A stretch of DNA of 64,000 bases, from positions 34,688,172 through 34,752,171 of the forward strand of contig CM037861.1 in NCBI GenBank assembly GCA_021292105.1, in the 5' to 3' direction. Positions 5,101 through 64,000 of this stretch are shown here, one piece after another; position 1 is the stretch's first letter, and the number at the start of each line of letters is the position of its first letter. Position numbers and translations under genes: made by a program. Below the pieces are notes generated by a model, which worked only from the letters and a program-made list of their open reading frames with translations, was not told the origin of the DNA and searched no databases. Source of the stretch: Anadara kagoshimensis (taxonomy: Eukaryota > Mollusca > Bivalvia > Arcoida > Arcidae).

Positions 5101-8100
5101 AAATTTTAATGCTCATTTCAAAATATCTCTTGGAAATAATTTGATGTTTGTAATTGATAAAATATAACTTTTTAAACATTTTATTTTCATCGTTTCAATA
5201 TATTTCAACAACAAGAGGCCCAATAGGGTCTGTACCGCTCACCTGGGCCAAAAACAGCATAAAAACACAAGAAATACTATATTTCAGGAGCAATAACTCT
5301 GATGTTGATATTTAGATATTTATGAAACTTGCTACTGAGTTAAATCTTGTCATGTCAATCATTTCTGCAATTTTTACTACAGTTGACTCTCGTTATCTCG
5401 AAATCGACGGGGAAATGCAAAAAGTTCGACTTTTATCCGGAGTTCGAGATAACCGATGTTAAAAACGGCAACAAAGGGGAAGTAACTCGTACACGCCTAC
5501 CGGAAGTCGCTACCGGAAGTCGCTTCCGGTTTTATCTTGTCAAACTGTATATTGCCGTTTTCTCCTATATCGTATGTATTCAAACATGAAATATATAAAA
5601 CTGCATTATTTATTATTTGTATTTATAATTGAGAATGTAGTATATAAACAAGAGGCCCATGGGCCTGATACGCTCACCTGATAACTAATGGCTAGCTGAT
5701 AGATTTAAAGAAAACATAAATACTAAACCCCAATGACTTTTTTCTTTACATCATGATAACCATTGTATCAATACCTACAACATTCTAATATACATGCCTA
5801 TACAAAAAGTTTATAGTTTTCGAGATAATTAACCATTTCGGTATTGTTTTACATCTGTGACCTTGACCTTTAAACCAATAACCTTTTTCTATACATCAAA
5901 ATGATCGTTGTATAAATACCTACAACATTCTAATATACATGCCTATACAAAAAGTTTATAGTTTTCGAGATAATTAACCATTTCGGTATTGGTTCCCATA
6001 TGTGACCTTGACCTTTACACCAATAACCTTTTTCTATACATCAAAATGATCGTTGTATAAATACCTACAACATTCTAATATACATGCCTATACAAAAAGT
6101 TTATAGTTTTCGAGATAATTAACCATTTCAGTATTGTTTCACATCTGTGACCTTGACCTTTGAACCCATGACCTTTTTCTATACATCAAAATGATCGTTG
6201 TATCAAAACCTACAACATTCTAATATACAAGCCTATACAAAAAGTTTATAGTTTTCGAGATAATTAACCATTTCGGTATTGTTTCACATCTGTGACCTTG
6301 ACCTTTAAACCAATAACCTTTTTCTATACATCAAAATGATCGTTGTATAAATACCTACAACATTCTAATATACATGCCTATACAAAAAGTTTATAGTTTT
6401 CGAGATAATTAACCATTTCGGTATTGGTTCGCATATGTGACCTTGACCTTTAAACCAATAACCTTTTTCTATACATCAAAATGATCGTTGTATCAATACC
6501 TACAACATTCTAATATACAAGCCTATACAAAAAGTTTATAGTTTTCGAGATAATTAACCATTTCAGTATTGTTTCACATCTGTGACCTTGACCTTTGAAC
6601 CCATGACCTTTTTCTATACATCAACATGACCGTTGTATCAATACCTACAACATTCTAATATACAAGCCTATACAAAAAGTTTATAGTTTTCGAGATAATT
6701 AACCATTTCGGTATTGTTTCACATCTGTGACCTTGACCTTTGAACCCATGACCTTTCTCTATACATCAAAATGATCGTTGTATCAATACCTACAACATTC
6801 TAATATACATGCCTATACAAAAAGTTTATAGTTTTCGAGATAATTAACCATTTCAGTAATGTTTCACATCTGTGACCTTGACCTTTGAACCCATGACCTT
6901 TTTCTATACATCAAAATGATTGTTGTATCAATACCTACAACATTCTAATATACATGCCTATACAAAATGTTTATAGTTTTCGAGATAATTAACCATTTCG
7001 GTATTGTTTCGCACCTGTGACCTTGACCTTTGAACCCATGACCTTTTTCTATACATCAAAATGATCATTGTATCGATACCTACAACATTCTAATATACAT
7101 GCTTATACAAAAAGTTTATAGTTTTCGAGATAATAATTATAATCAGAGGTAAAAAAAATTAGGTCACGACCTTCACAATTGACCTTGACCACATTTTGAA
7201 GATACTAACAAGAAGATGTCAAAACTGAAAACCCCATGTCATTATCTGGTCAAATAGTCAAGTTATAACAATTTGAAGTTATTTTACGATTTTTTCAAAA
7301 TTAAACGCAAAAACGCGTTACCTATTTTTCATCCGAATTTCACAAAATGAACAAACTATAGGCTTAAGACCCTAGAGAAGCCAAATATCACATCAGATTT
7401 TTTCTCCAATCAGTACTTTCGGAGAAGAAGATTTTTTAAGATTTTTGCACCCCTAGGTCACCTTGACCTAGTTATGGTAGCCATAGCAACACCATGAACA
7501 AATCTGAATTGCACCGGCCCATATATACTTCTGACAAAGTTTCATTAAAAACTGTCCAGTAGTTTCAGAGGAGAAGTCGAAAACAGGTGTTAACGACGCA
7601 CGCACACACGCACGCACGCACGCACATACACACGCAGCGCTATGCCATAAGCTCACATGACCTTTGGTCAGGTGAGCTAAAAATCAGGAGATTATCTGTT
7701 ACATAGTTCGACATAAATATACGATACTATGAAATAGTCATATAGATCTAGTAGCCTTATGAAATGCCAATGTCGACAAAATTCTCAGTATTTACCGATG
7801 CCGCTACATCTGTTTTAAATGTGAGAAGCAAGTTGGTTACAAAAAAGTGTCGACAGTGTTCATTTTTAAGTACTGTGAGATTGTATTCAAGTACAATTTT
7901 ATTCATACCAAGTGAATCAGTATACAGCTGTCTCTAAGTTTACAAGTGCATTATATTTGTGCTACTTTCCAGCTACTATTATCGTTTACTTAAAAATTAA
8001 ACGTGAAATATAAAGTACATCTTTTCAGCTACAATGTTGTCAATCAAATCCAATTTGGATATGAAAAATCTTATTCTGTCATTCTGCGTGATTCAATTCA

Positions 8101-11100
8101 GTTTTAAGAATAAAACTTGAAACAAAATAAAGTAAATATTATTTATTACAAAAGTTAGCAATTAATCAATAAAACAATACAATTTAGTCATAAAATCATC
8201 ATGATAATGCATAAATAATAAAGAAAAGAATAACAGAATGTCAATGTTCATTTCATAAATGTCTACTATACTTTTCATACATAAGCACTAAACTCTCAAC
8301 ATTACAAGAGCACTAGTTCCAAATTGCTTAAAATAAAGACATTTTCACTCATTATCATTGTAAAACATGACAAGAAATATGACACATAAGCATTACATCT
8401 AAAAAATATGAAATATAAAATCCATAATAATTTGTTTTAATAATCCAGAATTGAAAATATGAATAGTCACTGAATGTTTTAATGTAAATCCATATAACAA
8501 TTTATAATCTAATAAACTGAATGTCTTTAATCTTGTTAAGACGTTTTCTGGAAAAAGTCTGTAATGCCACTCTATGTTCGTAAAAAAACGATGTAAATGT
8601 TGACTAGTGATAAAGCTAGCGACGGCACTAAAATGATTGGACACATGCTCGGAATGTTCACTACAGTCTAAACAAGAGGCCCATGGGCCTTAACGCTCAC
8701 CTGTGACTTTGACCTTTGAACCCATAACCCTCATTCATATATCAAAATGATCATTAGGCCAATGTCTACAATATTCTAGCATACATGCCTATACAAAATA
8801 TTTATAGTTTTCAAGATAATAAACCAATTCAGTATTAATTTGCATCTGTGACCTTGACCTTTGAACTCATGACCTTTATTCATATATCAAAATTATTATT
8901 AGACCAATACCTACAATGTTCCAATATATATGTCTATACAAGGAGTTTATAGTTTTTGAGATAATCAACCATTTTAGTACTTGCTTGCATTTGTGACCTT
9001 AACCTTTGAACCCATGACCTTCATTCATATATCAAAATGACTGTTAGGCCCCAATACCTACATTATTCTAATATGTACAGTTTATATTTTTTTTGATAAT
9101 TTTCCATTTCAGTACTTGTTTGCATCATTTCTGTGACCTTGACCTTTGCACCCATGACCTTTATTAATATATCAAAATGACCATTGTGCCATTACCTACA
9201 ATATTCTAATATGTGTGCCTATAAAAAAAGTTAACAGTTTTGCAGATAATCAACTATAACAGTAATAGTTGTGCATCTTTGACCTTGACCTTTAAACCCA
9301 TGACCTTGATCTATGTATCAAAATGATCATCATGTCAATACCTACAATAAACTGAAAATCCCATGCCATTATAACCTGAAATGTTTAAAAAATAGCATTT
9401 TTTATCAAAGGTCAAAAACAGGGACATGACCTTGACCTTTGACATCTTTTGGAAGAAAATAGCAAGACAAGATCAACAGTGAAAACTCCATACAATTATC
9501 TTCAGCAGTTATTAAATTATAATTATTATTATTATTTTCAAAATTACATAATTTTCAGCAAAAAACGCGTAACCTATTTTTTGTTCAATTTTCATGAAAA
9601 ACACAATTTTAATGTTCCCAGGTATGCTGAATCCAAATATCCAATCAAAATTTGCCTGCACCTTTTGGTTTCAGAGAAGAAGATTTTTTTGTCTTCTTGC
9701 AATTTTTAGTAATGGCGGCCATCTTGTTGGGCGTGGCCAAACACCGAACACAATTTTTAGAGGCTGTTACCCAGGCATGATGATCACCAAGTTTCATCAA
9801 ATTTGGCCCAGTAGTTTTGGAGGAGAAGATTAAAATGTAAAGTTTACACACGACGGACGGTGATAGATTGCAATAGCTCATCTGAGCCTTTGGGTCAGGT
9901 GAGCTAAAAATCCCTGATAATGTCACATGCGTCTAAAACTTGGGATAATGGTCTCTTTACTGGGCACGGAAGTCACATCATCGTCCTCATTGTCACTAAT
10001 ATAATCTAAAATCCAATTTCGGGCACTTATGATATCACTAACAATACTGTCCTCGGTTATATCTTCCGATGTCTCTATATCATTGTCAATAACAGTATAG
10101 TCCTCTATAGATACAGCGGCACCAAAACCAAGTCGCATAATTCTGGCTAGTGGTATATCATCACAGGTCGTCATTGTCACTACACTCATCAGACAAATCT
10201 GCACTATTGGTAATACAGTAAAACCTCTCTAAACCGGACAAGCTCGGGACCATACATTTTGTCCGGTTTAGGGAGGTGTCCGGTTTAAGGAGGTTTTGAA
10301 ATTTTAACCTAGCTTATCTCCCCTTAACTAAAGATGATAAATGTCAGAGAAGCCACAATCAACAACACTGTACATGTTAATGCATTATAGAATATGCTAT
10401 ATGTAAAAGCTCTGTTTGAATTGGTTTTAAATCACCTTAATTCACTTTCTTAATAGGATTCTAATTAGGATACTAAAGGTAAACGACACTACCTTTATTA
10501 ATCCCTGACAGGACAACAATAGTGTTTACACCTTTCCAGTTTCCTTGATCCATAAGGTGTTACTGGATAATAATTAACAAAACAACTGTATCAACTATAG
10601 ATAATATGATAAGGTTATATAGAAGTGCTTATCTTAAGTTATTGTGTCAATTAACAAATAAATTAATGAACAAATTTAGATTAGAAAGAAAAACCACAAA
10701 AAGAAATAGAAAAATATATAGATGGAAAATATTTAAAATACAAATACATGAGTAATTAAATTAAATACCAAATATTTTAAATAAGAATAGAAAATAATAA
10801 AAAAAAACTTATGATTTTTTAGTGTCCATAATTGAATATTATTATAAATATGTTTAAAACTAATATATTTAAAAAAAAAAAAAACAATTTTTAAAAAAAA
10901 ATGTTGTCCGGTTTAGAGAGGTTCAATTTTAAGGATATAAGCAACTTGGGACTAAAAAGTTTGTCCGGTGTCCGGAATAGAGAGTGTCCGGTTTAGAGAG
11001 GTTCTTGTTAGTTGAAATAAAGAAGGATGAATTCGGGACCAAATATTTTGTCCGGAATAGAGAGTTGTCCGGTTTAGAGAGTGTCCCGTTTAGGGAGGTT

Positions 11101-14100: not shown

Positions 14101-17100
14101 TTAATATTCACACATTGGACCAATATTAAGGATTCATGTAGGAAATAGTTCAATCCGAATAAATGCATGTATGGAACCATCAAGGATGGTCAAAGTTACT
14201 TCCATCGTCATGGAGACCCTAATATTAAACAAGAGGTCCATGAGCCTTAATGCTCACATGCAGCTGAGTACATATCTCATGCAGAGGTTCAATGGTCATT
14301 GACATTAATTAAAGAGAATGTCCAAATAAATTTTCAGCAGTAAGGGCCAATTATATGTAAGGATTTTTTGCAAATTTATTATAACATAACTAGTCATAAG
14401 AGTGCTACATATAATACATCTGAAATCTAGCTACAATATATTGTTTATAAACAACTAAAAAGGTAAAGAAAAATTTGAACCCATGACCTTAATCTAAATA
14501 TCGCAATGAATATTAGGTCAATACCTACAATTTAGAAGCCTATACAAAAAGTTTATTGTTTTTGAGATAATTAACCATGTCAGTATTTGTTTGCATCAGT
14601 GACCTTGACTTTTAAACTCATGTCCTTCATTCATATATCAAAATGATCGTTAGGCCAATACCTACAATATTTTAACATATATGCCTGTACAAAAAGTTTA
14701 TAGTTTTTAAGACAATTAATCATTTCAGTATTCATTTGCATCTATAACCTTGACCATTAGACCTATGACCTACATTCATATATCAAAATGAACATTGTGT
14801 AAATGCCTATAACATTCTGATATACATGCCTATAGAGAAAGTTTATCATTTTTGAGATAATTCACCATTTCAGTATTTGTTTGCATCTATGACCTTGACC
14901 TTTGAACCTATGACCTTCGTTCATATATGGAAATGACCGTAAGGCAAATGCCTACAATATTCTAATATACATGCCTACACAAAGAGTTCAAAGTTTTTGA
15001 GATAATTAACCATTTCAGTATTCTTTTACATCTATGACCTTGACCTTTGAACTTATGACCTCTATTCATATATCAAAATGACCGTTGTGCAAATGCCTAC
15101 AGTATTCCAATACACATGATGATGATGCCCATACAAAAAGCTTATAGTTTTCAAATATATTGACAAATACATTAATTTTGCAATTTCCCCTCAAGTACCT
15201 TGCCATTATCTCATTTTGGCCCCTAAAGCTACAATATGTGCAAATCTAAAACTAGGTGCCCATAGTGTTTTACATGAAATATCTAAGTTATATCTGCAGA
15301 TGATTTTTAAAGATTTTCACAAATTTCCCCTTTATGGGCCCCAAGGGGACATAATCCTTGCATTTGTGCAAATCTGAAAACCCCTTACTTGACCATTACT
15401 GTCAAATATCATCCAATTTGGCTCTGTAGTTTTGGAGGAATTGATAAAAAATGTGAAAAGTGCACATCGGACGAAGATAGATGGCAATTGCACATCTGAG
15501 CCTTTGGCTCAGGTGAGCTAAAAAGTTTATACAAGACGGATGAAGATAGATGACAATTGTTCATCTGAGCCTTTGGCTCAGGTGAGCTAATAAGCTTCTG
15601 ATATCTTTCATGTCATAATTGAGGATATTTTTTAAATAAATTAATAACTTGAAAAAATTAACTATTATTTTATTATTATTTATATCACCAGAGTTGTGTT
15701 TTAAGAATTCGATAATTTTTGGAAGACTTTTTATTCCCGAGACCAGCATAATTTTAGTAAATCTTGTGAACAACAATTTTTTCAATCGGGTGGCCGTTAG
15801 GATCCCCGCTGACTGGGTTTGACAGGTGACCCCTCTACAAAGGTTCTGAACATGATAAAAATGTAGTTGACAGATGACCACTCTACAAAGTGATCGCTAT
15901 CCCAGATTTCACTCTAATCAATTTATAATTTTTTAAGGATGACTTCACGGAATGCTTTGAAAAACGGGAAAAGCAGTATGATAGCACAAAATTCCAAAAT
16001 TTTTGTCTTAATATGGGGAGACTCCTCACATCAGCAGGGATTGAGCTTAACTTTTCGATGAGCCATACAATGAACTGTCTCAAGAGTGATGGTTGATCTG
16101 AATATATCAGGCATATACATTTGGATTATTCTATCCCTTGCTTTACTTTTCGATATTCAACATCTGCAATTACATTGACGAATGGTTTTGCAGAAAATGT
16201 TGATCTATAGGTACTGCCAATGTCAATGACTGTATAATTTTGGCAGATTTTGATTTATTAGCAGGAACTTGTTTTGCATTACTAAAGGCTTGGGCCTGTT
16301 TGTGAGATTCAGAAATGTCATGTTTATTTACACTGTCAAGTTTATAACTAGTGCAACCCTCGGTAAATACAGATTTTTTCCTGTCGAACTCTACACAATC
16401 GGCACACTTCATTCCGTCCTGCGTATCATACAACCAAGGCCTGCCATCTTCCCATGGCTTTTTATATGCTCCAATGCGTTTGGACTTATCATACTCTTGA
16501 TAGTACTTTCGTTTTTCCGCAGGTCCTTGTTTAGCCTTTGGAGTCGATGCTCCTAAAATTTCCACATGGCAGAAAGCCGGAAGTATCATGTTATACATAA
16601 ATATCAGAAAAGGAAACGAAATGGCACCGTATTTGAATTCCGGTCGGAACACCGGTCCATTTACACTTGTTAACTATATGATACCCATTTTTCAATTTTA
16701 CTATTATTGTCGCCAGTCAGAAATATAAACAGGAAATCGGTAAACGGATCGGAATGTCAAATACACCGAACTGAAAATTCTAATCGCCACCTGGCAGCCC
16801 TGGGCGACCTATGTATGATACATTTATCGCCCAGAGCGAAAACTGGGCGCCCGTTAATCTCAATCCCTGATCGGGAGGGTTGGCAGGTATGATAAAACCA
16901 TTAAAAGTTAATTACTGCTAAAAATAGCTAACATCTGGGTCAAGAAGACGATCTCAACCAATCAGATTTCAGATTATAATAAATACAAGGAAAAAAATCT
17001 GTTGACCGGGAGGGGGGATCCGCGTGACGTCATCAACATAATCTATCCTCAAATACAACAAAATGCAGCGTTCTCTTTTCAATCACGTATCAATTTCTTA

Positions 17101-20100
17101 CTAAATCAATATTACTCAATAAATAAACCCCATTTACATGACAATTTACCCATCAAATCCATAGAATACACAATTTATTGAAATTTGAATTATCTCCCTT
17201 TATTCAAACTTCGACCTACATACGAGAGAGAGTTGATTTTCTGTAACGGAAGAATATTCGGGTTGAGAAATCTGCATGTAACAGCTACATTCGAGAATGA
17301 TCAAGATCATTCGCGAATAAAAACTACATAATTTAACGCAAAAAAAAACCAACCATGTAACCTATTTTTCGCCCAATTTTCATGAAAAACATAATTTTAA
17401 TGTTCCCAGGTATCCTGAATCCAAATATCAATCAAAATTTGCCTGCACCTTTTGGTTTCAGAGAAGAAGATTTTTTTGTCTTTTGGCTATTTTTAGTTAC
17501 GGCAGCCATATTGTTGGGCCTGGCTAAACCCCGAACATAATTTTGAAAGCCTGTTACCCAGGCATGATATTCATCAAGTTTCATCAAATTTGGCTCAGTA
17601 GTTTGGGAGGACAAAATTTTTGAAAAATTGTCAACGGACGATGACGGCGGTGTACACCAAGTGATGGACCTTCGGTATAGGTGAGCTAAAAAATTAGGTC
17701 ATGCAATTGACCCTTGACCCCCTATTGAAGATCATTACAAGATTATCTCAAAACTGAAAACCCTACGTTAAATCTGTTCAATAATCAAGTTATAACAATT
17801 TGAGCTATTTTATGGATTTTTCAAAATTAAACATAAAAACGCCTATTCCATTTTTTGCCTGAATTTAACTAAATGAATAAATTACAGAATTGAGACCCTA
17901 GAGAAGCCTAATTTCAAATCAGATTTTTTCTCCAATTGTAGCTTTCAGAGAAGATTTTTGAACATTTTTGCGCCCCTGGGTCACCTTTACCTAATTTTGG
18001 TAGCCAAGGCAATGCCACGAACAAATCTGAATTGCACCAGCCCATGGATATATTTGACCATGTTTCATTGAAATCTGTCCATTAGTAAAAGAGGAGAAGT
18101 CGAAAATAGTTTTTTTTTCAGAAGCAGTGAAATTTTGTTTACATTTTAATTGATCTTGAAGTCCTTTTAACCAGGTCTTGGATAAGCAAGTGCCATGTGT
18201 ATGATCAAGAACACAATATAAAAACATAACGTTATGGGATGCATTCACCAAAATTAAGTCACATTGAAACAATCAGAATATGGAGTCAATTCATTCACCG
18301 TGTAAATCAAAAACCTTCAGGGTACAAAGACCTAAAAGGTCTAAGCAATTCTTGGTCTGTAAAAACAATAATCTCAACCCTCAGATATCTATGTCTAAAC
18401 TACACAACAGGGGAAGATTCTATCATTGCATATTGTATATATGTTATATCTGTAGCACAATAACACAAATTTACTTGCTTCAACAAAGACATCATTGTTC
18501 TAAATCAATCTACTTTACTATCAAAACCCATGATGAATGTGACATCAAACTAGGCATTCTGTTGGTATATAGTCTAGAAATACTTTACCTTGGTGGTTTC
18601 CCTTCTAATCGCCTTCGACCTTCCATCTGCATTTGAACTTTGACCAAATCTGTTGGACTAGCAAAAAACTGGCCTGCAGCACCTGCTACAAGTCCTCCTA
18701 TTGACGCCTTCCTATAGGATAATAAAAATATTCTTGATCTTTAATACTGTTACTAAAAATGAATTATAATAAATTGATGAATGCAATGTTAATCAAACAG
18801 GTTATTTTAAAGTATGTATTATAAATCCATTTATCTTTCAATGATAAAAGCAAAAGTAATATATAAGATTAAATAAAATATATGTCAGTCATCAAGGATA
18901 TATTGTACAGGGTGATCTTATAAATATATTGTACAAGGTGATCTTATAAATATGTCAGTCATCAAGGATATATTGTACAGGGTGATCTTATAAATATATT
19001 GTACAAGGTGATCTTATAAATATGTCAGTCATCAAGGATATATTGTACAGGGTGATCTTATAAATATATTGTACAAGGTGATCTTATAAATATGTCAGTC
19101 ATCAAGGATATATTGTACAGGGTGATCTTATACATATGTCAGTCATGGAGGATATATTGTACAGGGTGATCTTATAAACATGTCAGTCATTGAGGATACA
19201 TGTATATTGTACAGGGTGATCTTATAAATATGTCAGTCATCGAGGATATATTGTACAGGGTGATCTTATAAATATGTCAGTCATTGAGGATATATTGTAC
19301 AGGGTGATCTTATAAATATGTCAGTCATCGAGGATATATTGTACAGGGTGATCTTATAAATATGTCATTAAGGATATATTGTACAGGGTGATCTTATAAA
19401 TATTTCAGTCATCGAGGATATATTGTACAGGGTGATCTTATAAATATATTGTACAAGGTGATTTTATAAATATGTCAGTCATCAAGCATATTTTGTACAG
19501 GGTGATCTTATAAATATGTCAGTCATTTATGCATTAGTTACTTATGCAGAGGGCATTGCATATACTTAACATCGAGGGACATACAAACATTGATAGACCC
19601 CACTTCTATATCCCTTCCAAGTTGCCAACTTCGTAAGAGTGGGGAATAAAAGCACAGTTTCTTTTTAAATGCAACAACACAAATCTATATAAATATTAAA
19701 TACAATATCCAATGTATAGTTATAACTGTCATTTCACAATTCGTAACATTCAATACCGAATATGGACCGCTCGGTTGTGTATGGACCGGTCCATACACCG
19801 TGTATGGACCGTTCAGTCTTGTACACTGTATTATTTTCATCATTTTTTCAGCTTTCGACCAATCAAATAAATTAATACAGATGTGATATGCAATAACAAG
19901 AATATATATTGTACAGGGTGATCTTATAAATATGTCAGTCATCGAGGATATATTGTACAGGGTGATCTTATAAATATGTCAGTCATTGAGGATATATTGT
20001 ACAGGGTGATCTTATAAATATTTTAGTCATCGAGGATATATTGTACAGGGTGATCTTATAAATATATTGTACAAGGTGATTTTATAAATATGTCAGTCAT

Positions 20101-23100
20101 CAAGGATTTATTGTACAGGGTGATCTTATAAATATGTCAGTTATTGAAGATATATTGTACAGGGTGATCTTATAAATATGTCAGTCATCGAGGATATATT
20201 GTACAGGGTGATCTTATAAATATGTCAGTCATTGTGGATATATTGTACAGGGTGATCTTATAAATATGTCAGTCATTGTGGATATATTGTACAGGGTGAT
20301 CTTATAAATATGTCAGTCATTGAAGATATATTGTACAGGGTGATCTTATAAATATGTCAGTCATTGAAGATATATTGTACAGGGTGATCTTATAAATATG
20401 TCAGTCATTGAAGATATATTGTACAGGGTGATCTTATAAATATGTCAGTCATTGAAGATATATTGTACAGGGTGATCTTATAAATATGTCAGTCATTGTG
20501 GATATATTGTACAGGGTGATCTTATAAACATGTCAGTCGTCAAGGATATATTGTAAGGGGTGATCTTATAAACATATCAGTCATCAAGGATATATTGCAC
20601 AGGGTGATCTTATAAATATATTGTACAAGGTGATTTTATAAATATGTCAGTCATTGAGGATATATTGTACAGGGTGATCTTATAAACATGTCAGTCGTCA
20701 AGGATATATTGTAAGGGGTGATCTTATAAACATATCGTTCATCAAGGATATATTGTACAGGGTGATCTTATAAACATGTCAGTCATCGACGATATATGGA
20801 AAGGGTGATCTTATAACCTTTACTTTTACACTTTATGGGACTATTGAACAGAACATTTCTTCATCCGTGCAAATATGTGAACTCTTTTTCCAAGTATAAT
20901 AATAATCACCGGTAATACCTAGTGCTATCAAAGCGAGTATACATGACAGGTGATACAAAGTAGTTTATTGTTCTAAGTAAGGTAATAATTACTAACCACA
21001 TAGGAAAGGTACCATCTGGATTTTTGCCTAATATCTTATCTCTTATCACTTCATAAAAAGACATTCTACAACCAGTATATACTGAAAAACAATAATAATA
21101 AAAACAAGAAGTAAGATTCCTCCTATCATGCTCATATCAGACAAGAAATCCCCACGTTTTAACAGGGTAAGAATTTTGTAAGACAATCTACATGGGCTAT
21201 AATGACGTAATATCATTTTGATTATGACGTCAAAAATTTAATTGTGAAGTCATTGGTGGCTAAATGCAAACAATGTACTTTTTTGCATAGTTAAGGCATA
21301 ATTTTTACTATAAAATCTTTACAAAACAGGCATATATTGGATATGGGATAAAACAAGAGGCACATGGGCCTTAACGTTCACCTGGGGGTGTGTACATATC
21401 TCATGCTCTGGTTCAATGGTCCATAAATAAATAAATAAATCAATAAGAATGTATAAATTCTCGACAGTTAGGGCCAATATGTTAAATTTTGCTAATTAAT
21501 TGTAACTTGTTCTGAGAATACTACATCTAAAATATCTAAAGTCTAGCTGCAGTATTTTATTCATAAACAGCTAAAATATATTAAAACCAGAGGCTCAGTG
21601 TGGCTGAGCCTGTATCGCTCACCTGACTAAAATGCTTTTAAAGCAAATTTGTATTCCAGTGATGAACAAATGCACTGTTTATATCACAGAATGGCTAAGG
21701 AAATCACTGTAGAACTATATGTACCATTCAGTTTTTTCAATCTGATTAAAATCACATCTCTAACTTGCTCTTCCCATAAGGTCCAATGTGAAACAATGTT
21801 CTCCGCTGGCAGCCATGTTTTATGGCAGATCAGAAACATTTTGGCAATCTATGTAAAGGACCTTCTATACATTATTCCTGTAAAGTTTGGTTCAATTTGC
21901 TTCAGTCATTTCTGAGGACATAGTCAAAAATGTGTTTTTCCCATAGGGTCCAATGTTAAACTATCTTCTGCCCTGGCGGCCATGTTTTTTAGCGGATCAG
22001 AAAAATTTTTGGCAATCTAAGTAAAAGACCTTCTATACATCATTCCTGTAAAGTTTGGTTCAATTTGCTTCACTAGCTTCAGAGGAGATAGCATATATAT
22101 GCTTTACCCATAGGGTCCAATGTTAAACTATCTTCTGCGCTGGCGGCCATGTTTGTTTGTGGATCAGAAAAATTTTGGCAATATAAGTAAGGGACCTTCT
22201 ATACATCATTTCTGTAAAGTTTGGTTTAATTCCCTTCAGTCATTTCTGAGGAGATAGCATATATATGCTTTTCCCATAGGGTCCAATGTTAAACTATCTT
22301 CTGCGCTGGCGGCCATGTTTTTTGGCGGATCAGAAAAATTTTGGCAATCTAAGTAAAGGACCTTCTATACATCATTCCTGTAAAGTTTGGTTCAATTTGC
22401 TTCACTAGCTTCAGAGGAGATAGCATATATATGCTTTTCCCATAGGGTCCAATGTTAAACTATCTTCTGCGCTGGCGGCCATGTTTTTTTGTGGATCAAA
22501 AATTTTGGCAATATAAGTAAAGGACCTTCTAAACATCATTTCTGTAAAGTTTGGTTAAATTCCCTTCAGTCATTTCTGAGGAGATAGCCATAAATTCGTT
22601 TTTCCCATAGGGTCCAATGTTAAACTATCTTCTGCCCTGGCGGCCATGTTTTTTGGCGGATCAGAAAAATTTTGGCAATCTAAGTAAAGGACCTTCTATA
22701 CATCATTCCTGTAAAGTTTGGTTCAATTTGCTTCACTAGCTTCAGAGGAGATAGCATATATATGCTTTTCCCATAGGGTCCAATGTTAAACTATCTTCTG
22801 CGCTGGCGGCCATGTTTTTTGGCGGATCAGAAAAATTTTGGCAATCTAAGTAAAGGACCTTCTATACATCATTCCTGTAAAGTTTGGTTCAATTTGCTTC
22901 ACTAGCTTCAGAGGAGATAGCATATATATGCTTTTCCCATAGGGTCCAATGTTAAACTATCTTCTGCGCTGGCGGCCATGTTTTTTTGTGGATCAGAAAA
23001 ATTTTGGCAATATAAGTAAAGGACCTTCTAAACATCATTTCTGTAAAGTTTGGTTAAATTCCCTTCAGTCATTTCTGAGGAGATAGCCATAAATTCGTTT

Positions 23101-26100
23101 TTACCATAGGGTCCAATGTTAAACTATCTTCTGCCCTGGCGGCCATGTTTTTTGGCGGATCCTAAAAATTTTGGCAATCTAAGTAAAGGACCTTCTATAC
23201 ATCATTCCTGTAAAGTTTGGTTCAATTTGCTTCACTAGCTTCAGAGGAGATAGCATATATATGCTTTTCCCATAGGGTCCAATGTTAAACTAATTTCTGC
23301 GCTGGCGGCATTGTTTTTTGGCGGATCAGAAAAATTTTGGCAATCTAAGTAAAGGACCTTCTATACATCATTTCTGTAAAGTTTGGTTAAATTCCCTTCA
23401 GTCATTTCTGAGGAGATAGCCAAAAATTCGTTTTTCCCATAGGGTTCAATGTTAAACTATCTTCTGCCCTGGCAGCCATGTTTTTTGGCGGATCCTAAAA
23501 ATTTTGGCAATCTAAGTAAAGGACCTTCCATACATCATTCCTGTAAAGTTTGGTTAAAATTGGTTCAGGGGTTTCAGAGGAGATAGCTAAAATGTGAAAA
23601 GTTTACAGACGGACTGACTGACTGACAGACTGACGGACAGACTGACGGACGGACGGACGGACGACGGACGCCGAGTGATGGCAAAAGCTCACATGGCCTT
23701 TAGGCCAGGTGAGCTAAAAAGTACAAACATAAAAAATTAGGTCATTTAGTATTTGTTTGCATCTGTGACCAAGACCTTTATTAATATATGAAAATGATAA
23801 TTGGGATCATATATAATCATTTTAGTATTCAATTGCATCTGTGACTTTTTACCCTTGAACCAATAACCCTTATTCATCTATATCAAAATGATCATTATGT
23901 CAAAACCTACAATATTCTAATTTACATGCCTAAACAAAAGTTAAAAGTTTTCAAGATAATTAACCATTTCAGTATTCATTTGTTTTTGTGACCTTGAACT
24001 TCGAACCCAAGACCTTTATTATTATATCGAAATGATCATTAGGCCAATATCTAGAATATTCTAATATACATGCCTATATAAAATGTTTATAAGTTTTCTA
24101 AAAACAAGAAGTCAGATTTCTCCCATCATGCCCATATCGGACAACCAATGTCCTTCATCAATATTTCAAAATGGTCATTATGCCAATACTTACAATATTC
24201 TAATATACATGCCCATACAAAAAGTTTATAGCTTTCCAGATAATTAACCATTCAAGTATTCATTTGCATCTGTGACCTTGACATCTGAACCTATTACCTT
24301 CATTTATATATCGAAATGATCGTTAGGCCAATACCTACAATATTCTAAAAAGTTTATAGTTTTTGAGATAATTAACCATTTTCGGTATTTGTTTGCATCT
24401 GTGACCTTAACTTTTTAACGAATGACCAATAATATATCAAAATGACCGTTGTGCTATTGCAAGCAATATTCTGATATACATACCTATACAAAAAGTTTAT
24501 AGGTTTCGAAATAAAAAACCATTTCAGTATTCATTTACATCTGTGTGACCTTGACTTTTGAACCCATGACCTTTTTTCATATCAACATGATTGTTGGGCC
24601 CAATACCTACAATATTTAATATAAATTCCTATACAAATAGTTTTCTAGATTATTAATCATTTTCGTATTTGTTTTTATCTGTGACATTGACCTTTGAACC
24701 CATGACCTTCATTCATAAATCAAAATGACCGTCATTCCAATACCTAGAACATTTTAATATTATAAAAACCTATAAAAAAAGATAATAGTTTTGCAGACAA
24801 TTAAACATTTTGGTATAATTGTGCACCTATGACCTTGACCTTTGAAGCCATGACCTTGATCTGTGTATCATGATGATTGCCATGTCAATACCTACAAGAG
24901 GCCCATGGGCCTGATACGCTCACCTGATAACTAATGGCTAGCTGATAGATTTAAAGAAAACATGAATACTAAACCCCAATGACTTTTTTCTTTACATCAT
25001 AATGACCGCTGTATCAATACTACAACATTCTATTATACATGCCTATACAAAAAAGTTTATAGTTTTCGAGATCATTAACCATTTCGGTATTGTTTCGCAT
25101 CTGTGACCTTGACCTTTGAACCCATGAACTTTTCCTATACATCAAAATGATCGTTGTATCGATACCTACAACATTCTAATATACATGCCTATACTAAAAA
25201 TTTTATAGTTTTCGAGATAATTAACCATTTCAGTATTGTTTTGCATCTGTGACCTTGACCTTTGAACCCATAACCTTTTTCTATACATCAAAATGATCGT
25301 TGTATCAATACCTACAATATTCTAATATACATGTCTATACAAAAAGTTTATAGTTTTTGAGATAATTAACCATTTCAGTATTCTTTCGCATTTGTGACCT
25401 TGACCTTTGAACCCATGACATTAATCTATATATCAAAATGATAGTTAAATCAAAACCTACAATATTCGAATATACATGTCTATACAAAAAGTTTATAGTT
25501 TTTGAGATAATTAACCATTTGATTTCAGTATTCTTTCGCATCTGTGACCTTGACCTTTGAACCCATGACCTTTATCTATATATCAATTCCTTCAATATTG
25601 TTATATACATGTCTATACAAAAAGTTTATAGTTTTCGAGATAATTAACCATTTCGGTATTGTTTTGCATGTGACCTTGACTTTTGAACCCATGACCTTTA
25701 TTAATATATCAAAATGACCATTGTGCCATTACCTACAATATTCTAATATGTATGCCTATACCAAAAGTTTAGTTTTGCAGATAATCAACTAAAACGGTAA
25801 TAGTTGTGCATCTTTGACCTTGACCTTTGAACCCATGACCTTGATCTATGTATCAAAATGATTGTCATGTCAATACCTACAATTAACTGAAACTCCCATG
25901 CCATTATCACCTGAAATGTTTAAAAAATAGCATTTTTTATCAAAGGTCAAAAACAGGGACATGACCTTGAGATTTGACCTTGAAATCTTTTGGAAGAAAA
26001 TAGCAAGACAAGATCAACAGTGAAAACTCCATACAATTATCTTCAGCCGTTATTGAGTTATAACAATAAATGTCTCATTTTCAAAATTACATAATTTTAC

Positions 26101-42639: not shown

Positions 42640-43911
42640 ACCCAAAACCACTATTAAAGTGGGAGCATGGAACGTTCGAACCATGTTGAGCCATCCAAAT
42701 TAGTTCAAGTCACCAGAGAGATGCAACGATACAATCTTGATCTTGTTGGCGTGAGCGAGACCCGTTGGACAGGAACAGGCAAGAGTAAATCTAGCGATGG
42801 TACAGTCATCCTACACTCAGGACATCAGGATAAACACATCCATGGAGTGGCTCTACTTATAGCCAAAGAGAAAGCTAACACCCTCATGGAATGGGAACCA
42901 ATAAATGAAAGATTACATCGTGCACGATTCAATTCAAAGTACAGCAAGCTAACAATCATTCAGTGCTATGCTCCAACAAATGAGGCCGAAGACGAAACAA
43001 AAGATGAGTGGTATGAACAACTGCAATCCACCATTTCGAAAGTACCTCAACACGATGTTCTTCTTGTCATAGGCGACTTCAATGCAAAGATTGGCAGTGA
43101 TAACACCACGTTTGAGAAAGTCATGGGGAGACATGGGTGTGGAACCATCAATGATAACGGAGAAAGACTCGTCGAGACTTGTCAAAACAACAATCTGGTC
43201 ATTGGGAATACCATCTTCCCCCACAAAGACATTCATAAACTTACATGGAAATCACCTGATGGAAGGACAACCAACCAGATAGACCATATTATCATCAATG
43301 GTAAATGGAGGAGATCGCTAAAAGATGTAAGAGTTTATCGAGGCGCTGACGTCAACTCAGACCACTACCTTGTAGTAGCACCAATTAAACTTAAACTAAG
43401 AAAGAATCAACCTAGTCAACAAGCTAAGAAACTTGACATCCAGAAGCTAAAATCTACACATACTGTAAGGCAATTCCAACTTCAACTACGGAACAGATTT
43501 CAAGTGCTGTCTGATGATGCACAAGATGTAGAGACAGACTGGGATAACATCAAGAAAACGTATATAGAAACAGCAGAAAAAGTACTTGGATTCAGGAAGA
43601 GAAAATCTAAAGACTGGATAACACCAGGAACGATAGCAAGAATCGACAAGAGAAAGGACATCAAAAGTAAAATACTTAGTACGAAATCCACCAGACTGAT
43701 TGAAAAGCTACATAAAGAATATAAAGAAGCTGATAAAGAAGTCAAAAAGAGTGCTAGACAAGACAAAAGAAGCTTCCTTGACCAGCAAGCACAGGAGGCC
43801 GAAACAGCAGCTAGTAAAGGAGAGATGGGAAAGGTGTATAAGATCACTAAAAGTCTGAGTAGAAATAACAACACAGCTATCACAAATGTGAAAGATAAAC
43901 ATGTACTGTAA
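42640..43911 (+). pseudogene. Retrotransposon AP-type endonuclease region, frameshifted
   Basis: The frame encodes an exonuclease-endonuclease-phosphatase fold. Motifs in order are GVSETRWTGTGKSKS, VIGDFNAKIGSDN (catalytic GDFN, near 43070), TNQIDHIIINGKWR and SDHYLVVAPIKLKL (catalytic SDH, near 43355). The conserved start GAWNVRTM lies upstream in another frame, so one base is missing near 42685. A stop at 43909 with a further shift near 43938 separates this part from the RT. A Lys/Asp-rich linker (about residues 300-400) joins the two domains in the intact family. Confidence 0.9.
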
Positions 43912-43960
43912 TTACCAGTGAAAAAAACAAGCTGATAGATGGGTTCAATATTTTAAAGAG

Positions 43961-45529
43961 GTGCTAAATCACCCAACACCCGACGAAGCTGCGGAGGTAG
44001 ATCCAGCAGAAACTCTCTTGGATATCGACTTAAATCCTCCCACAGAAATTGAAGTAAAGAAAGCAATTACATCGCTTAAAAGTGGGAAAGCTCCAGGGGT
44101 TGACCAGATCCATACAGAAATGCTGAAAACAGACTTAGAAACATCGACGAAAGTCTTAACAAACCTTTTCAAAAACATCTGGAATAACAACACCATTCCA
44201 AAAGACTGGACGAAAGGGCTCATTGTGAAACTGCCAAAGAAAGGAGACCTGCAAATATGTGACAACTGGCGAGGAATTACTCTGCTGTCAACACCCAGTA
44301 AAGTCTTTCTAAAAGTGCTTCTCTCAAGAATAGAAGCAGATATCGACGATAAACTTAGAGAGGAACAACCTGGATTTAGGAGAGGAAGAGGCTGTATAGA
44401 CCAAATATTTACGCTCAGAAACATCATAGAGCAGTGTATCGAGTGGAACAGTCCCTTGCATATCAACTTTATAGATTTTAAGAAAGCCTTTGACAGCGTG
44501 AATAGAGACACCTTATGGAAAATATTGCAGCATTATGGACTACCAACTAAAGTCATCACAATAATAAAGAAATTCTATGAAAATTATGAATGCAGTATCA
44601 TCCTAAGCAACACAACAACAGATTGGTTCCGGGTTGAGTCTGGAGTAAGACAGGGATGTATCATATCACCTATCCTCTTTCTTGTAACCATTGACTGGGT
44701 AATGAAGAAAACAACATCAGATAGACCAAGAGGGATTCAAGGGGACCTACTCTCACACCTCGAAGACCTTGATTTCGCAGACGATCTAGCCATTCTGTCT
44801 ACCAACACAAACAACATGCAAGAAAAATCAGACAGGACTCAACATCAGCACAAAGAAAACGAAGGCCATGAAGATAAACAGCAATTCATCAACCAATCTT
44901 AAAATCGATGACACAACTAAAGAATATGTGGAAGAATTTACCTATCTAGGGAGTCTAATCAGCACTGACAACGCTGCACAGAAAGATATAAAGGCTCGGT
45001 TAGGGAAAGCCAGGACTGTATTTTCAATCCTACGTCCAATTTGGAGTTCCAACTTGTACTCGTTGAAAACAAAAATTAAGCTGTTTAATAGCAACATCAA
45101 ATCCGTCTTATTATATGGATCAGAGTGCTGGAGAATCATCCAAAGTGACTTGAACAAAATTGAAAGTTTTTACAATGGCTGTTTGCGAAAGATCTGTAAA
45201 ATATTTTGGCCTCAGAAAATATCAAACGTTGAACTCCTAAACAAGACCAATTGCAGGAAGATCAGCACAGAAATAAAAGAAAGGAGATTAAAATGGCTAG
45301 GCCATGTCTTCAGGATGGAGCAACAACGACACCCGAAGGTTGCCTTAAGATGGACTCCGCCTGGCAAGAGAAGACCTGGCAGACCTAAAACAACATGGAG
45401 AAGGACGGTGGCGGCAGAACTACAGGATGGTGGTTGACATGGGGAGAAGCACAGAAACTGGCCAAAGACAGACCCAAATGGAGGCAGAAAGTTGCAGCCT
45501 TATGTCTCATCGGAGACGAAGAGGATTAA
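43961..45529 (+). pseudogene. Retrotransposon reverse transcriptase region, frameshifted
   Basis: Reverse transcriptase motifs in order are LKSGKAPGVDQIHTEML, NWRGITLLSTPSKV, EEQPGFRRGRGCIDQIF, FIDFKKAFDSVNRDTLW (first catalytic Asp, 44483-44500), GVRQGCIISPILF and LDFADDLAILS (FADD active site at 44774-44785). The C-terminal part continues from 44838 in a different frame (FTYLGSLIS, ERRLKWLGHVFRME, GKRRPGRPKTTWRR). The last residues (TWGEAQKLAKDRPKWRQKV) sit in yet another frame after 45430. At least two shifts here plus those upstream make it non-functional. Confidence 0.9.
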
Positions 45530-46846: not shown

Positions 46847-46850
46847 TTTG

Positions 46851-49323
46851 TTTTTAGCTCACCTGACCAAAGGTCATGTGAGCTTATGGTATGGTGCGGC
46901 GTGTGTATGTGCGTGTGTGCGTGCGTGCGTGCGTGTGTGCGTGCGTCGTTAACACACATTTTCGACTTCTCCTCTGAAAGTACTTGGCAGATTTCAACGA
47001 GACTTGGTCAGAAGCATGTCTGTATCGGTGCAATTTAGATTGGTTCATGGCGTTGCCATGGCTACCAAAACTAGGTCACAGTGACCTAGGGGTGCAAAAA
47101 TCTTGAAAAATCTTCTCTCTGAAACCGATGATGGGAGAAAAAATCTGATGTGATATTTGGCTTCTCTAGGGTCTTAAGCCTGTAGTTTGTTCATTTCGTG
47201 AAATTCGGTTGAAAAATGGGTTACGCGTTTTTTTGCGTTTAATTTTGAAAAAATCGTAAAATAGCTTCAAATTGTTATAACTTGACTACTTGACCAGATA
47301 ATGACATGGGGTTTTCAGTTTTGACATCTTCTTGTTAGTATCTTCAAAATGAGGTCAAGGTCAATTGTGAAGGTCGTGACCTAATTTTTTTACCTCTGAT
47401 TATAATTATTATCTCGAAAACTATAAACTTTTTGTATTGTCATGTATATTAGTATGTTGTAGATATTGATACAACGATCATTTTGATGTATAGAAAAAGG
47501 TCATGGGTTCAAAGGTCAAGGTCACAGATGCGAAACAATACCCAAATGGTTAATTATCTCGAAAACTATAAACTTTTTGTATAGGCATGTATATTAGAAT
47601 GTTGTAGGTATTATTACAACAATCATTTTGATGTATAGAAAAAGGTCATGGGTTCAAAGGTCAAGGTCACAGATGCGAAACAATACCCAAATGATTAATT
47701 ATCTCGAAAACTATAAACTTTTTGTATAGGCATGTATATAAGAATGTTGTAGGTATTGATACGACGATCATTTTGATGTATAGAAAAAGGTCATGGATTC
47801 AAAGGTCAAGGTCACAGATGTGAATCAATACTGAAATGGTTAATTATCTCGAAAACTATAAACTTTTTGTATAGGCATGTATATTAGAATGTTGTAGGTA
47901 TTGATACAACGATCATTTTGATGTATAGAAAAAGGTCATGGGTTCAAAGGTCAAGGTCACAGATGCGAAACAATACCCAAATGGTTAATTATCTCGAAAA
48001 CTATAAACTTTTTGTATAGGCATTTATATTAGAATGTTGTAGGTATTGATACAACTATCATTTTGATGTATAGAAAAAGGTCATGGGTTCAAAGGTCAAG
48101 GTCACAGATGCCAAACAATACCCAAATGGTTAATTATCTCGAAAACTATAAACTTTATGTATAGGCATGTATATTAGAATGTTGTAGGTATTGATATGAC
48201 GATCATTTTGATGTATAGAAAAAGGTCATGGGTTCAAAGGTCAAGGTCACAGATGCGAATCGATACTGAAATGGTTAATTATCTCGAAAACTATAAACTT
48301 TTTGTATAGGCATGTATATTAGAATGTTGCAGGCATTGATACAACAATCATTTTGATGTATAGAAAAAGGTCATGGGTTCAAAGGTCAAGGTCACAGATG
48401 CGAAACAATACAGAAATGGTTAATTATCTCGAAAACTATAAACTTTTTGTATAGGCATGTATATTAGAATGTTGTAGGTATTGATACAACGATCATTTTG
48501 ATGTATAGAAAAAGGTCATGGGTTCAAAGGTCAAGGTCACAGATGCGAAACAATACAGAAATGGTTAATTATCTCGAAAACTATAAACTTTTTGTATAGG
48601 CATTTATATTAGAATGTTGTAGGTATTGATACAACTATCATTTTGATGTATAGAAAAAGGTCATGGGTTCAAAGGTCAAGGTCACAGATGCGAAACAATA
48701 CCCAAATGGTTAATTATCTCGAAAACTATAAACTTTATGTATAGGCATGTATATTAGAATGTTGTAGGTATTGATATGACGATCATTTTGATGTATAGAA
48801 AAAGGTCATGGGTTCAAAGGTCAAGGTCACAGATGCGAATCGATACTAAAATGGTTAATTATCTCGAAAACTATAAACTTTTTGTATAGGCATGTATATT
48901 AGAATGTTGCAGGCATTGATACAACAATCATTTTGATGTATAGAAAAAGGTCATGGGTTCAAAGGTAAGGTCACAGATGCGAAACAATACAGAAATGGTT
49001 AATTATCTCGAAAACTATAAACTTTTTGTATAGGCATGTATATTAGAATGTTGTAGGTATTGATACAACGATCATTTTGATGTATAGTAAACGGTCATGG
49101 GTTCAAAGGTCAAGGTCACAGATGTAAAACAATACTGAAATGGTGAATTATCTTGAAAACTGTAACGCTTTGTATAGGCATGTATATTAGAATGTTGTAG
49201 GTATTGATACAATGATCATTTTGATTTAAAGAAAAAAGTCATTGGGGTTTAGTATTTATGTTTACTTTAAATCTATCAGCTAGCCATTAGTTATCAGGTG
49301 AGCGTATAAGGCCCATGGGCCTC
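46851..49323 (-). mobile_element. Full-length subfamily A element, inverted, 13 units
   Basis: Minus-strand reading: TTGT (inverse ACAA) at 49324, GAGGCCCATGGGCCTTATAC, A-type 5' region, about thirteen 145-base units, A-type 3' domain, GCGTGTGTGCGTGC microsatellite (46900-46950), hairpin 46856-46884 and CTAAAAA. A four-unit block is duplicated inside the array. It lies between the two host genes. Confidence 0.9.
47073..47087. promoter_or_regulatory. Perfect AGGTCA-CAG-TGACCT palindrome (ERE type)
   Basis: Contains GGTCACAGTGACC, the classic vitellogenin-type oestrogen response element core. The spacer differs from the other copies (CAG/CTG instead of CCT/AGG) while both half-sites are kept. 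Confidence 0.6.
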
Positions 49324-49327
49324 TTGT

Positions 49328-54169: not shown

Positions 54170-55640
54170 CATGACACTGCGTTCGAACGAGATACTTTTA
54201 CGTGGGAACGAATTACTTTTGCGTGAGAACGAAATATCATTGCGTGCGAACGCAATACTTTTGCGTGGGAACAAAATATCATTGCGTGGGAACGAAATAT
54301 CATTGTGTGCGAACGCAACACTTTTGCGTGGGAAGAAATTATCATTGCGTGCTAACGCAATACTTTTGCGTGGAAAAAATTACTATTGCGTGGGAACGAA
54401 ATATCATCGCATGGGAACGAAATACTTTTGCGTGGGTACACGTGCGAACGAAATATCATTGCTTTGTGGAACGTAATACTTTTGCGTGGAAACGAATAAC
54501 TATTGCGTGAGAACGAAATATCATTGCGTGCGAACGAATTACTATTGCGTGGAAACGCTATACTTTTGCGCGGGAACGAATTACTATTGCGTGGAAACGC
54601 TATACTTTTGCGCGGGAACGAATTACTATTGCGTGCAAACAAAATATCATTGCGTGGGAACGAAATACTATTGCGTGGGAACGAATTATATTGCGTGGAA
54701 CGAAATATCATTGCGTGCGAACGCAATACTTTTGCGTGTGAACGAAGTACGTTTGCGTAGGAACGAAATATCATTGTGTGCGAACGCAACACTTTTGCGT
54801 AGGAAGGAATTGTCATTGCGTGCAAACGCAATACTTTTGCGTGGGAAAAATTACTATTGCGTGGGGACGAGATATCATCGCATGGGAACGAAATACTTTT
54901 GCGTGGGTACGAATTACTATTGCGTGCTAACGAAATATCATTGATGGGAACGTTATACTTTTGCGTGGAAACGAATACTAGTAACTATTGCGTGGGAACG
55001 AAATATCATTGCATGCGAACGAATTACTTTGCGTGGGAACGCTATACTTTTGCGCGGGAACGAATTACTATTGTGTGGAAACGAATTACTATTGCGTGGG
55101 AACGCAATATCATTGCGTGCGAACGCAATACTTTTGCGTGTGAACGAAGTACTTTTGCGTGGGAACGAATTACTATTAAGTGAGAACGAAATACTTTTGC
55201 GTGGGATCGAACTACTATTGCGTAGGAACGAATTACTATTCAGCGGCGTGCGAACGAATTACTATTGTGTGGGAACGCTATACTTTTGCGTGCGAACGCA
55301 ATACTTTTGCGTGTGAACGAAGTACTTTTGCGTGGGAACGAATTACTATTAAGTGGGAACGAAATACTTTTGCGTGGGATCGAACTACTATTGCGTGGGA
55401 ACGAATTACTATTCAGTGGCGTGCGAACGAATTACTATTGTGTGGGAACGCTATACTTTTGCGTGGGAACGGAATACTTTTGCGTGGGAACGAATAACTA
55501 TTGCGTGGGAACGAATTACTTTTGTGTGCGAACGAATTACTAACTAGCAATATTGCGTGGGAACGAAATATCACTGCGTGCGAACGTAATGCTATTGCGT
55601 TGGAACGAAATGTCATTCCGTGCGAACTCAAACATATACT
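54170..55640. repeat. 24-bp minisatellite with TTGCGTG core, about 60 units
   Basis: Units combine TTGCGTGGGAACG or TTGCGTGCGAACG with AAATATCA, AATTACTA, CAATACTT or CTATACTT. Because 24 is divisible by 3, open frames occur in several frames on both strands and are artefacts. Longer blocks are duplicated, for example about 55029-55250 with 55255-55430. Confidence 0.95.
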
Positions 55641-56745: not shown

Positions 56746-56941
56746 TGGTATATAAGAATTAGAAAAACTAAAAAATTTCGACGCAGAGCAGAAAATGTGC
56801 TCTTAGTAATTTTTCCAATTGTGAGGTGCAGGGCTGTGATAAATCGAGATGGACCATGTCTTAACGAACCAGGGGAGAGAACTGCTATTTTACTCTGCGC
56901 ATGAATTTCTGTAGGAACTATTTTCTTAGTGAAAACGCAAA
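56746..56941 (+). promoter_or_regulatory. GRB2 5' flank / 5' untranslated region
   Basis: TATATAAG (56750) adjoins the SINE head. An acceptor-like TTTTCTTAG lies 12 bases before the ATG, so the coding exon may be preceded by a spliced 5' exon, or the whole stretch may be transcribed. The true start site is unknown. Confidence 0.35.
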
Positions 56942-62698: not shown

Positions 62699-62733
<35 letters not shown>

Positions 62734-63206: not shown

Positions 63207-63302
63207 TTAAGATTTTGTGGGTAAGGACAACTAGATTTAATATGCTAGCATATCATTTTTGTTTTTGGGAATTTTAGTGGTCAAATTGGAAAATTTAAGT
63301 CA

Positions 63303-64000
63303 TTTTTAGCTCACCTGACCATAGGTCATGTGAGCTTATGGCATAGCGCAGCGTGTGTATGTGCGTGCGTGCGTGAGTGTGTGCGTGCGTGCGTCGTTAA
63401 CACACATTTTCAACTTCTCCTCTGAAACTACTGGACAGATTTCAATGAAACTTGGTAAGAAGTATGTATGGGCCGGTGCAATTCAGATTTGTTCATGGCG
63501 TTGCCATGGCTACCATAACTAGGTCAAGGTGACCTAGGGGTGCAAAAATCTTAAAAAATCTTCTTCTCCGAAAGTATTGATTGGAGAAAAAATCTGATGT
63601 GATATTTGGCTTCTCTAGGGTCTTAAGCCTATAGTTTGTTCATTTTTTGAAATTCGGAGAAAAAATAGGTTACGCGTTTTTGCGTTTAATTTTGAAAAAA
63701 TCGTAAAATAGCTTCAAATTGTTAAAACTTGACTATTTGACCAGATAATGACATGGGGTTTTCAGTTTTGACATATTCTTGTAATTACCTTCAAAATGGT
63801 GTCAAGGTCAATTATGAAGGTCATGACCTAATTTTTTACCTTTCTAATATTATTTATTATCTGGAAAACTATAAACTTTTTATCTAGGCATGTATTGGAA
63901 TGTTGTTGGTTTTGATGTAACGATCATTTTGATATATAGATTTAGGTCATTGGTTTAAAGGTCAAGGTCACAGATGCGAAAGAATACTGAAATGGTTCAT
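63303..64000 (-). mobile_element. Subfamily A element, inverted, cut by window end
   Basis: Minus-strand 3' end CTAAAAA, hairpin 63308-63336 (loop TAT in element sense), CGCA-type microsatellite (63360-63395), A-type 3' domain and the first array unit. It lies antisense to GRB2, inside its first intron. Confidence 0.88.
63521..63535. promoter_or_regulatory. Perfect AGGTCA-AGG-TGACCT palindrome (ERE type)
   Basis: In element orientation the spacer is CCT, as at 7455 and 35948. Lies in GRB2 intron 1. Confidence 0.6.

Follow-up and report, generated by a model that had tools for sequence, protein, structure and literature searches.

The stretch of DNA analyzed here, 64,000 nucleotides of the Anadara kagoshimensis genome (hereafter the window), contains multiple copies of a mobile element, one end of which forms a hairpin that is real and keeps its pairing while its sequence changes. 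This family is a Helentron-type rolling-circle transposon, and the hairpin is the known 5' subterminal inverted repeat (subTIR) plus complementary inverted repeat (IR) of HINEs, the non-autonomous Helentrons described in the available portions of studies on mites and Drosophila (PMC4067079) and on the Pacific oyster (PMC7492417), rather than a Helitron terminator. The initial annotation had placed it at the 3' end, before a CTRR terminus; relative to the Rep gene, that end is the 5' end. Both corrections follow from the layout of a full-length element elsewhere in the genome and from the identity of the window copies to it. The hairpin is probably a 5' terminal module, consisting of the 5' subTIR and its complementary IR, that serves Helentron-type transposons and satellite-carrying HINEs and is recognized in folded form.

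The 1.115-Gb host genome yields 104 matches to Helitron_like_N, among which one group, termed class E, includes a full-length Helentron of about 18.0 kb on contig C9 (L118 position 2022 to L070 position 4015), entirely covered by the overlapping or adjoining tiles L118, L069, L028, L119, L166, and L070. In this element the hairpin shares its strand with the Rep match and precedes it by 10.2 kb; a 145-bp array comes next after the hairpin, whose adjacent bases (TTATGGCATAGCGCAGCGTG) are the same as in the window. A single open frame of 2,611 amino acids, read in pieces, matches Herpes_teg_N (an OTU-like domain), DUF6570, Helitron_like_N, PIF1, and a C-terminal Exo_endo_phos, the last at 27.0 bits against a cut-off of 24.5, so that Rep, helicase, and C-terminal endonuclease are contained within a single protein, as in Helentrons. 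OTU-like proteases are shown in a related element in a figure legend of PMC4067079. A palindromic end is found 3.5 kb past the stop codon. The two termini of the element read TTTTTAGCTCACC and CTTGTT, in place of the 5' TC and the 3' CTRR with a 3' hairpin of canonical Helitrons, and the endonuclease domain of the frame likewise sets it apart from Helitrons, which are not known to carry one.

Other members of class E display the same polarity. In four of the seven copies examined, the hairpin precedes Rep on the strand of that gene, with differing outside DNA; the end CAGGTGAGCGTATCAGGCCCAATGGGCCTC lies downstream in all five copies examined for it (one reading GGGTCTC), and both ends are present in three copies. 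Over 0.6-1.7 kb, the window copies at 7650, 36128, 46856, and 63308 are 91-95% identical to the 5' part of the class E element, and three 3' ends in the window show 95% identity to its final 38-39 bases. The approximately 18.0-kb Helentron, possessing the 145-bp array and both ends of the window copies, is the autonomous partner of the satellite-bearing HINE. A tRNA-like stretch, GTAGCTCAGTTGGTAGAG, is also present on the minus strand inside the full-length Helentron (L118 at about 5988, L117 at about 583), although ARAGORN reported no tRNA in the four tiles tried. A second Helitron_like_N group, class F (L071, L072), comprises many copies of a 2,529-amino-acid open frame; its flanks in these loci contained no copy of the window-family subTIR, and the class F ends were not found there.

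All seven hairpins that had been reported in the window are present at their coordinates, with the distal stems (GACC/GGTC, GAGCC/GGCTC, and GGCC/GGCC) and loops as described, and the distal stem is paired at every one of the seven places despite its differing sequence. The proposed fold of the proximal arm stands for six of them, each folding under RNA parameters into a single extended hairpin interrupted by one internal mismatch, but the outer part at 15496 is further interrupted: its proximal arm reads TGCACA instead of AGCTCA, and only the distal stem pairs well there. A scan for the conserved arm added four end copies (9875, 15558, about 17659, and 28076), three of which are less well formed in the stem; the distal stem is thus fully paired in 8 of 11 window end copies, the original list being the well-paired subset, and remnants near 13312 and 39235 retain the inner repeat only. 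Under DNA parameters, the hairpins of six genome types have free energies of -10.2 to -12.0 kcal/mol, with z values of -4.4 to -6.7. Genome-wide, the 14-base anchor TTTTAGCTCACCTG has 14,068 matches against 6 for a reversed-pattern control, and a 34-base hairpin pattern has 3,054 against 0 for the backward pattern.

Covariation of the inner stem was assessed on 104 5' ends, of which 90 were taken from 100 listed anchor places (of 14,068), all within the first 8.2 Mb of contig C1, and the remainder from the window and other loci. The ten listed places omitted were already known paired GACC hairpins, an omission that does not favor pairing; L001-L008 were excluded as duplicates of later loci, and identical stretches were counted once. 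A hairpin could be parsed in 83 of the 104 ends, with a perfect inner stem in 71, a paired stem including one G.T in 5 (76 paired in total), and at least one mismatch in 7. The main inner stems are TGACC/GGTCA, TGGCC/GGCCA, TGAGCC/GGCTCA, and TGAGCT/AGCTCA, with A-rich loops. The reported change of the stem on both arms together between lineages is borne out among the 29 distinct hairpins: 22 two-sided changed cells were counted against 9.0 after shuffling, pairing cells reached 96.1% against 90.0% (neither value being attained in any of 500 shuffles), and the covariation score was 0.171 against 0.082 after shuffling and 0.002-0.055 with the partner slid. Shuffles, slides, a tree of 65 of 78 copies, and arm swaps on seven hand-defined lineages served as stand-ins for a covariation test. 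Six of these seven lineages are fully paired, an outcome equalled by only 4 of 5,040 arm swaps. Three of the five shuffle measures and the arm-swap expectation were exceeded, two shuffle measures were not, and none of them amounts to a full phylogenetic null. The MAFFT alignment (A1) merges a C-G and a G-C pair of different-length stems in a single column pair (12-23), so that 12 of the 22 two-sided cells may represent a change in length.

Relationships among the stem types were examined through the tree and the flanks. GAGCT forms its own clade beside GAGCC in the tree of 65 copies, and the two GGCC types fall into different lineages by flank comparison (79% identical), for which reason the change between GGCC and another stem, in whichever direction, may have happened twice; the "GAGCT" row of the flank comparison was left unused, since a GACC copy from that locus (L049) had been mixed into it. 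For the third inner pair, the genome-wide counts are 4,196 for A-T, 1,660 for G-C, 28 for A.C, and 21 for G.T. With arms that are reverse complements of each other, G.T and A.C should be equally numerous under neutral decay; the observed 21 and 28 fit this expectation, and present copies therefore appear to decay neutrally, any selection being exerted on the few lineages that spread. The hairpin pattern matched 0 stretches in viral contigs, which confines the comparison to one genome.

The two ends of the element are related through their repeats. The 5' arm of the hairpin, AGCTCACCTG, is the subTIR common to the 3' end; in the GACC lineage, the subTIRs near the two ends (GCTCACCTGA and TCAGGTGAGC) share about 10 bp, shorter than the 11-15 bp given in the papers. 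As in HINEs, the 5' subTIR is followed by the complementary IR and a microsatellite. The 3' end is the palindrome GGCCCA-TGGGCC. Among 41 3' ends, including 20 hand-picked from 100 listed of 4,153, the intact form AGGCCCATGGGCCT or AGGCCCAATGGGCCT was observed in 27, AGGCCCATTGGGCCT or one G.T pair in three more, and a broken or different form in 11, one of which is the paired window variant AGGCTCAG..CTGAGCCT at 21591-21611. All five class E copies carry the palindrome, one with a G.T pair, and its sequence is more fixed than that of the 5' inner stem. Five T's precede AGCTCACC in 76 of the 104 ends and four in 14 of them, four T's having belonged to the anchor. In L151 and L152 the subTIR end recurs within a few hundred bases (L151 offsets 60 and 249), an arrangement that resembles a nascent satellite derived from the element 5' end, and L063 contains two variant 3' ends 52 bp apart (offsets 1047 and 1099), with a similar one in L054.

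The mismatch position at the junction of the two stem parts, which had been described as conserved, is indeed mismatched in all 83 parsed copies and all 29 distinct forms. Opposite the subTIR "CC" stand TG (42), GA (29), AG (9), TA (2), and CA (1), and never GG, while the mismatch reads TG, GA, AG, or GT in multi-copy forms; exactly one of the junction C's is paired in 26 of the 29 distinct forms, neither in 3, and both in 0. The unparsed copy L097 has GG at the junction and has lost the inner 3' arm. Perfect junctions were identified at 15 loci among the 100 non-T rows listed out of 126, compared with 4,196 carrying T, and at 19 loci among the 100 non-A rows listed out of 166, compared with 3,163 carrying A; each such locus accounts for two rows, reading alike on both strands, and these tallies were counted by eye. 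An AAAA loop, found in 12 of the 100 listed rows, is common to 7 of the 19 perfect loci, which may be a small perfect lineage, and the 60 rows with T in the second, non-A set are probably a further lineage. Relatedness of the copies weakens the evidence for a kept mismatch too. A perfect inner repeat would read CAGGTGAGCT, nearly identical to the 3' subTIR CAGGTGAGCG. It is conceivable, though doubtful, that the mismatch is a kept signal by which the transposase distinguishes the 5' hairpin from the other end, thereby setting the direction of rolling-circle transposition, the inner stem being free to drift if paired; the 7 perfect loci sharing the AAAA loop, as a possible small lineage, make this idea less probable.

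As to mechanism, the protein combining Rep, helicase, and endonuclease is predicted to recognize the 5' end in single-stranded, folded form, in which the fixed subTIR arm would be read by sequence, whereas the inner stem would mainly have to pair and could drift as long as it does so. By analogy with Helraiser, such recognition by Rep through a fixed subTIR arm in a drifting paired stem is likely. The stop signal at the 3' end would be the second subTIR together with its own palindrome. After insertion, copies would mutate freely, and spreading would continue only in lineages that keep the hairpin.

Several observations weigh against this explanation. The expected 900 bases lack the 5' end in three of the seven class E copies, and 21 of the 104 sampled ends have no parsable inverted repeat (including L097 and two window copies whose inner stem is paired), while an inner mismatch is present in 7 of the 83 parsed copies, two of which (L080 and L094) share theirs. 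The number of pairs with two-sided change is 3 against 2.7 after shuffling (reached in 325 of 500 shuffles), further pair types number 6 against 7.3 (reached in all 500), and wobble intermediates are not commoner than mismatches (G.T 21 versus A.C 28, p = 0.39). Independent changes are few, amounting to about seven lineages set by hand, and copy counts are counts of relatives. Moreover, the fold is known here from sequence, which does not separate recognition of a folded strand from that of a dimer site. The statement that paired change implies selection on the fold was therefore too strong, given the two null shuffle measures, the small number of lineages, and the lack of any excess of wobble pairs over mismatches; the between-lineage paired change itself holds, and it makes selection on the fold likely but does not prove it.

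Other explanations of the paired changes have to be considered. A few source elements carrying different palindromes, once amplified, would mimic covariation, leaving a fold with no present function; the stem types fall mostly into their own clades in the tree of 65 copies, and single changes within clades are mostly uncompensated, with wobble at 21 against mismatch at 28, as such a founder effect would have it. Full pairing of six of seven lineages with different stems, matched by so few of the arm swaps, makes this account quite improbable. Somewhat better placed, though still unlikely, is foldback copying, in which one arm, when single-stranded, templates the repair of the other and double changes arise in one step in the absence of selection. 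It would explain why double changes are abundant and yet wobble forms no large group at pair 3, where it is limited to 21 copies that have several loops; however, copying of the whole hairpin would remove the junction mismatch, which every one of the 83 parsed copies retains, and the perfect forms it should leave behind are rare (15 loci in 100 listed of 126, and 19 in 100 listed of 166).

The symmetry could also serve a protein dimer bound to double-stranded DNA instead of a folded strand. A two-fold symmetric site would likewise change on both arms, and the present data do not distinguish the two; nevertheless, the inner stem (5 or 6 bp) and the loop vary in length with pairing kept, which would shift the spacing of the half-sites, and in the available portions of PMC4778049 and PMC5876387 the Helraiser protein cleaved single-stranded ends, not double-stranded DNA, so that a dimer site is judged decidedly improbable. 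As for the reading as a CTRR Helitron whose 3' terminal hairpin halts replication, the position near an element end agrees with it, and hairpins are typical of Helitron 3' ends in the available text of PMC4778049, but with the hairpin end upstream of Rep on the same strand, an open frame with a Helentron endonuclease, and the termini TTTTTAGCTCACC and CTTGTT, hardly any likelihood is left to it. The 5' terminal module of Helentrons and HINEs recognized as a folded strand thus remains the preferred explanation.

Within the window, two-ended copies run from the hairpin through a microsatellite and, for the majority, also a tandem array (145 bp, or 166 bp in one copy) to an end of type CAGGTGAGCGTATCAGGCCCATGGGCCTCTTGTT; seven end pairs were recognized, spaced 0.7-2.5 kb apart, with the partner uncertain for two (23686 and 26414). 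Four copies have the inner stem TGACC/GGTCA. The first, a HINE copy with both ends on the minus strand (5648-7682), has its 5' hairpin at 7650-7678 (loop AAA in element orientation), the microsatellite at about 7596-7636, the 145-bp array at 5730-7134, the 3' subTIR at 5673-5680, and the 3' palindrome at 5652-5666, and is 93.0% identical over 1.7 kb to the 5' part of the autonomous element. The second, also on the minus strand, is the copy at 34147-36160, with the hairpin at 36128-36156 (loop GAA) and the 145-bp array at 34259-35628. On the plus strand are the copy at 46852-49327, comprising the hairpin at 46856-46884 (loop AAA), the 145-bp array at 47408-49242, and the 3' palindrome at 49309-49322, and the hairpin at 63308-63336 (loop ATA), whose element continues past the window.

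The remaining copies are all on the minus strand. The hairpin at 9875-9905, in a copy with ends at 8672 and 9909, has the inner stem TGACCC/GGCTCA with one C.C mismatch. Two 5' end copies lie 69 bp apart, at 15489-15519 (the hairpin listed at 15496; inner stem TGAGCC/GGCTCA) and 15558-15588, each with the inner stem paired and the outer, proximal arm broken, and a degenerate 5' end copy at 17659-17687, its far boundary placed by eye, has lost the hairpin. At 23686-23715 the inner stem is TGGCC/GGCCA with the loop TAAA, and the 166-bp array occupies 21766-23587; the nearest 3' end, at about 21586, is the one with the paired variant palindrome, and a second 3'-like end at 21357 makes the partner of this hairpin uncertain. 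The hairpin at 26414-26444 (TGAGCC/GGCTCA, junction GA) is accompanied by a 3' end at 24894, and the stretch 24894-26448, combining a GAGCC-type 5' hairpin with a 3' end resembling the GACC lineage, may be a chimera or two nested elements. A diverged hairpin at 28076-28103 belongs to a copy whose ends are at 27436 and 28107; the inner part of this hairpin is altered, and its outer pair 7 is A-T in place of C-G.

Other features of the window include pieces of a non-long-terminal-repeat retrotransposon at 42667-45437, with endonuclease, reverse transcriptase, and DUF6451 in neighboring frames; about 66 copies of a 30-bp repeat at 1-2042, crossed by two long open frames of 254 and 419 amino acids, of which the 419-amino-acid frame, the only one searched, matched nothing in Pfam at E 0.01; a 37-bp repeat at 2426-4105, in about 45 copies, with AGCTCA within many units; and an array of 21-bp units at 54178-55611 with open frames on both strands.

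The mechanism of Helentrons is less studied than that of Helitrons, and the hairpin provides a well-defined substrate of single-stranded DNA, of which compensated variants occur naturally, so that recognition of the 5' end by the Helentron Rep becomes directly testable. With the identification of a full-length Helentron that carries the array as well as both ends, it becomes possible to study the element from which thousands of related end copies derive. In the available portions of the oyster study (PMC7492417), HINEs spread satellite-like DNA through the genome and are not connected to an autonomous element; for one family the present analysis supplies this connection, the full-length Helentron having both ends and a 145-bp array of the same type.

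Among known systems, Cg_HINE of Crassostrea gigas is the closest in layout: as described in the available portions of PMC7492417, its left flank consists of a 5' subTIR with a complementary IR at a distance of 1-12 bases, together with a microsatellite, its center of a satellite-like array, and its right flank of a 3' subTIR and a palindrome, with an oligo-T target, and its authors noted element-specific changes in subTIR, IR, stems, and loops. The window copies share this layout, apparently including the T-rich target, the subTIR with a complementary IR at the 5' end being the published HINE design, although the subTIR identity is about 10 bp here versus 11-12 there, and no autonomous partner could be linked to Cg_HINE in that text, whereas one sharing both ends and the array type is found here. 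The two are likened by layout, not sequence, and differ further in that pairing is here tested for covariation and a kept mismatch described.

Helentrons and HINEs of mites and Drosophila, including DINE-1, resemble the present family in the Rep, helicase, and endonuclease combination, the 3' palindrome, apparently the T-rich target, and a subTIR near the 5' end, which is palindromic in some families (PMC4067079, available portions). They differ in that the 145-bp array also occurs in the autonomous copy here, the comparison being by description, not sequence. Pearl elements, which are reportedly interspersed in bivalves and have central repeats of about 160 bp, show a likeness in both respects, again by description and not by sequence. 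They have been reclassified as non-autonomous Helentrons with central repeats of about 160 bp, according to the available portions of PMC7492417. Helraiser, as covered by the available portions of PMC4778049 and PMC5876387, likewise combines Rep and helicase domains with a hairpin at one element end, but its ends are 5'-TC and CTAG-3' and its hairpin is at the 3' end. Its left end is essential, its 3' hairpin is the terminator, and exchange of the stem retained about 90% of activity, whereas a change of the loop did not (PMC4778049, available portions). The literature search found no paper combining Helentrons with compensatory change, the matches listed for Helitron, hairpin, covariation, and compensatory included none on a compensated hairpin as judged by titles and the starts of abstracts, and the main text of the oyster study (PMC7492417) has no word beginning with "compensat-" or "covar-".

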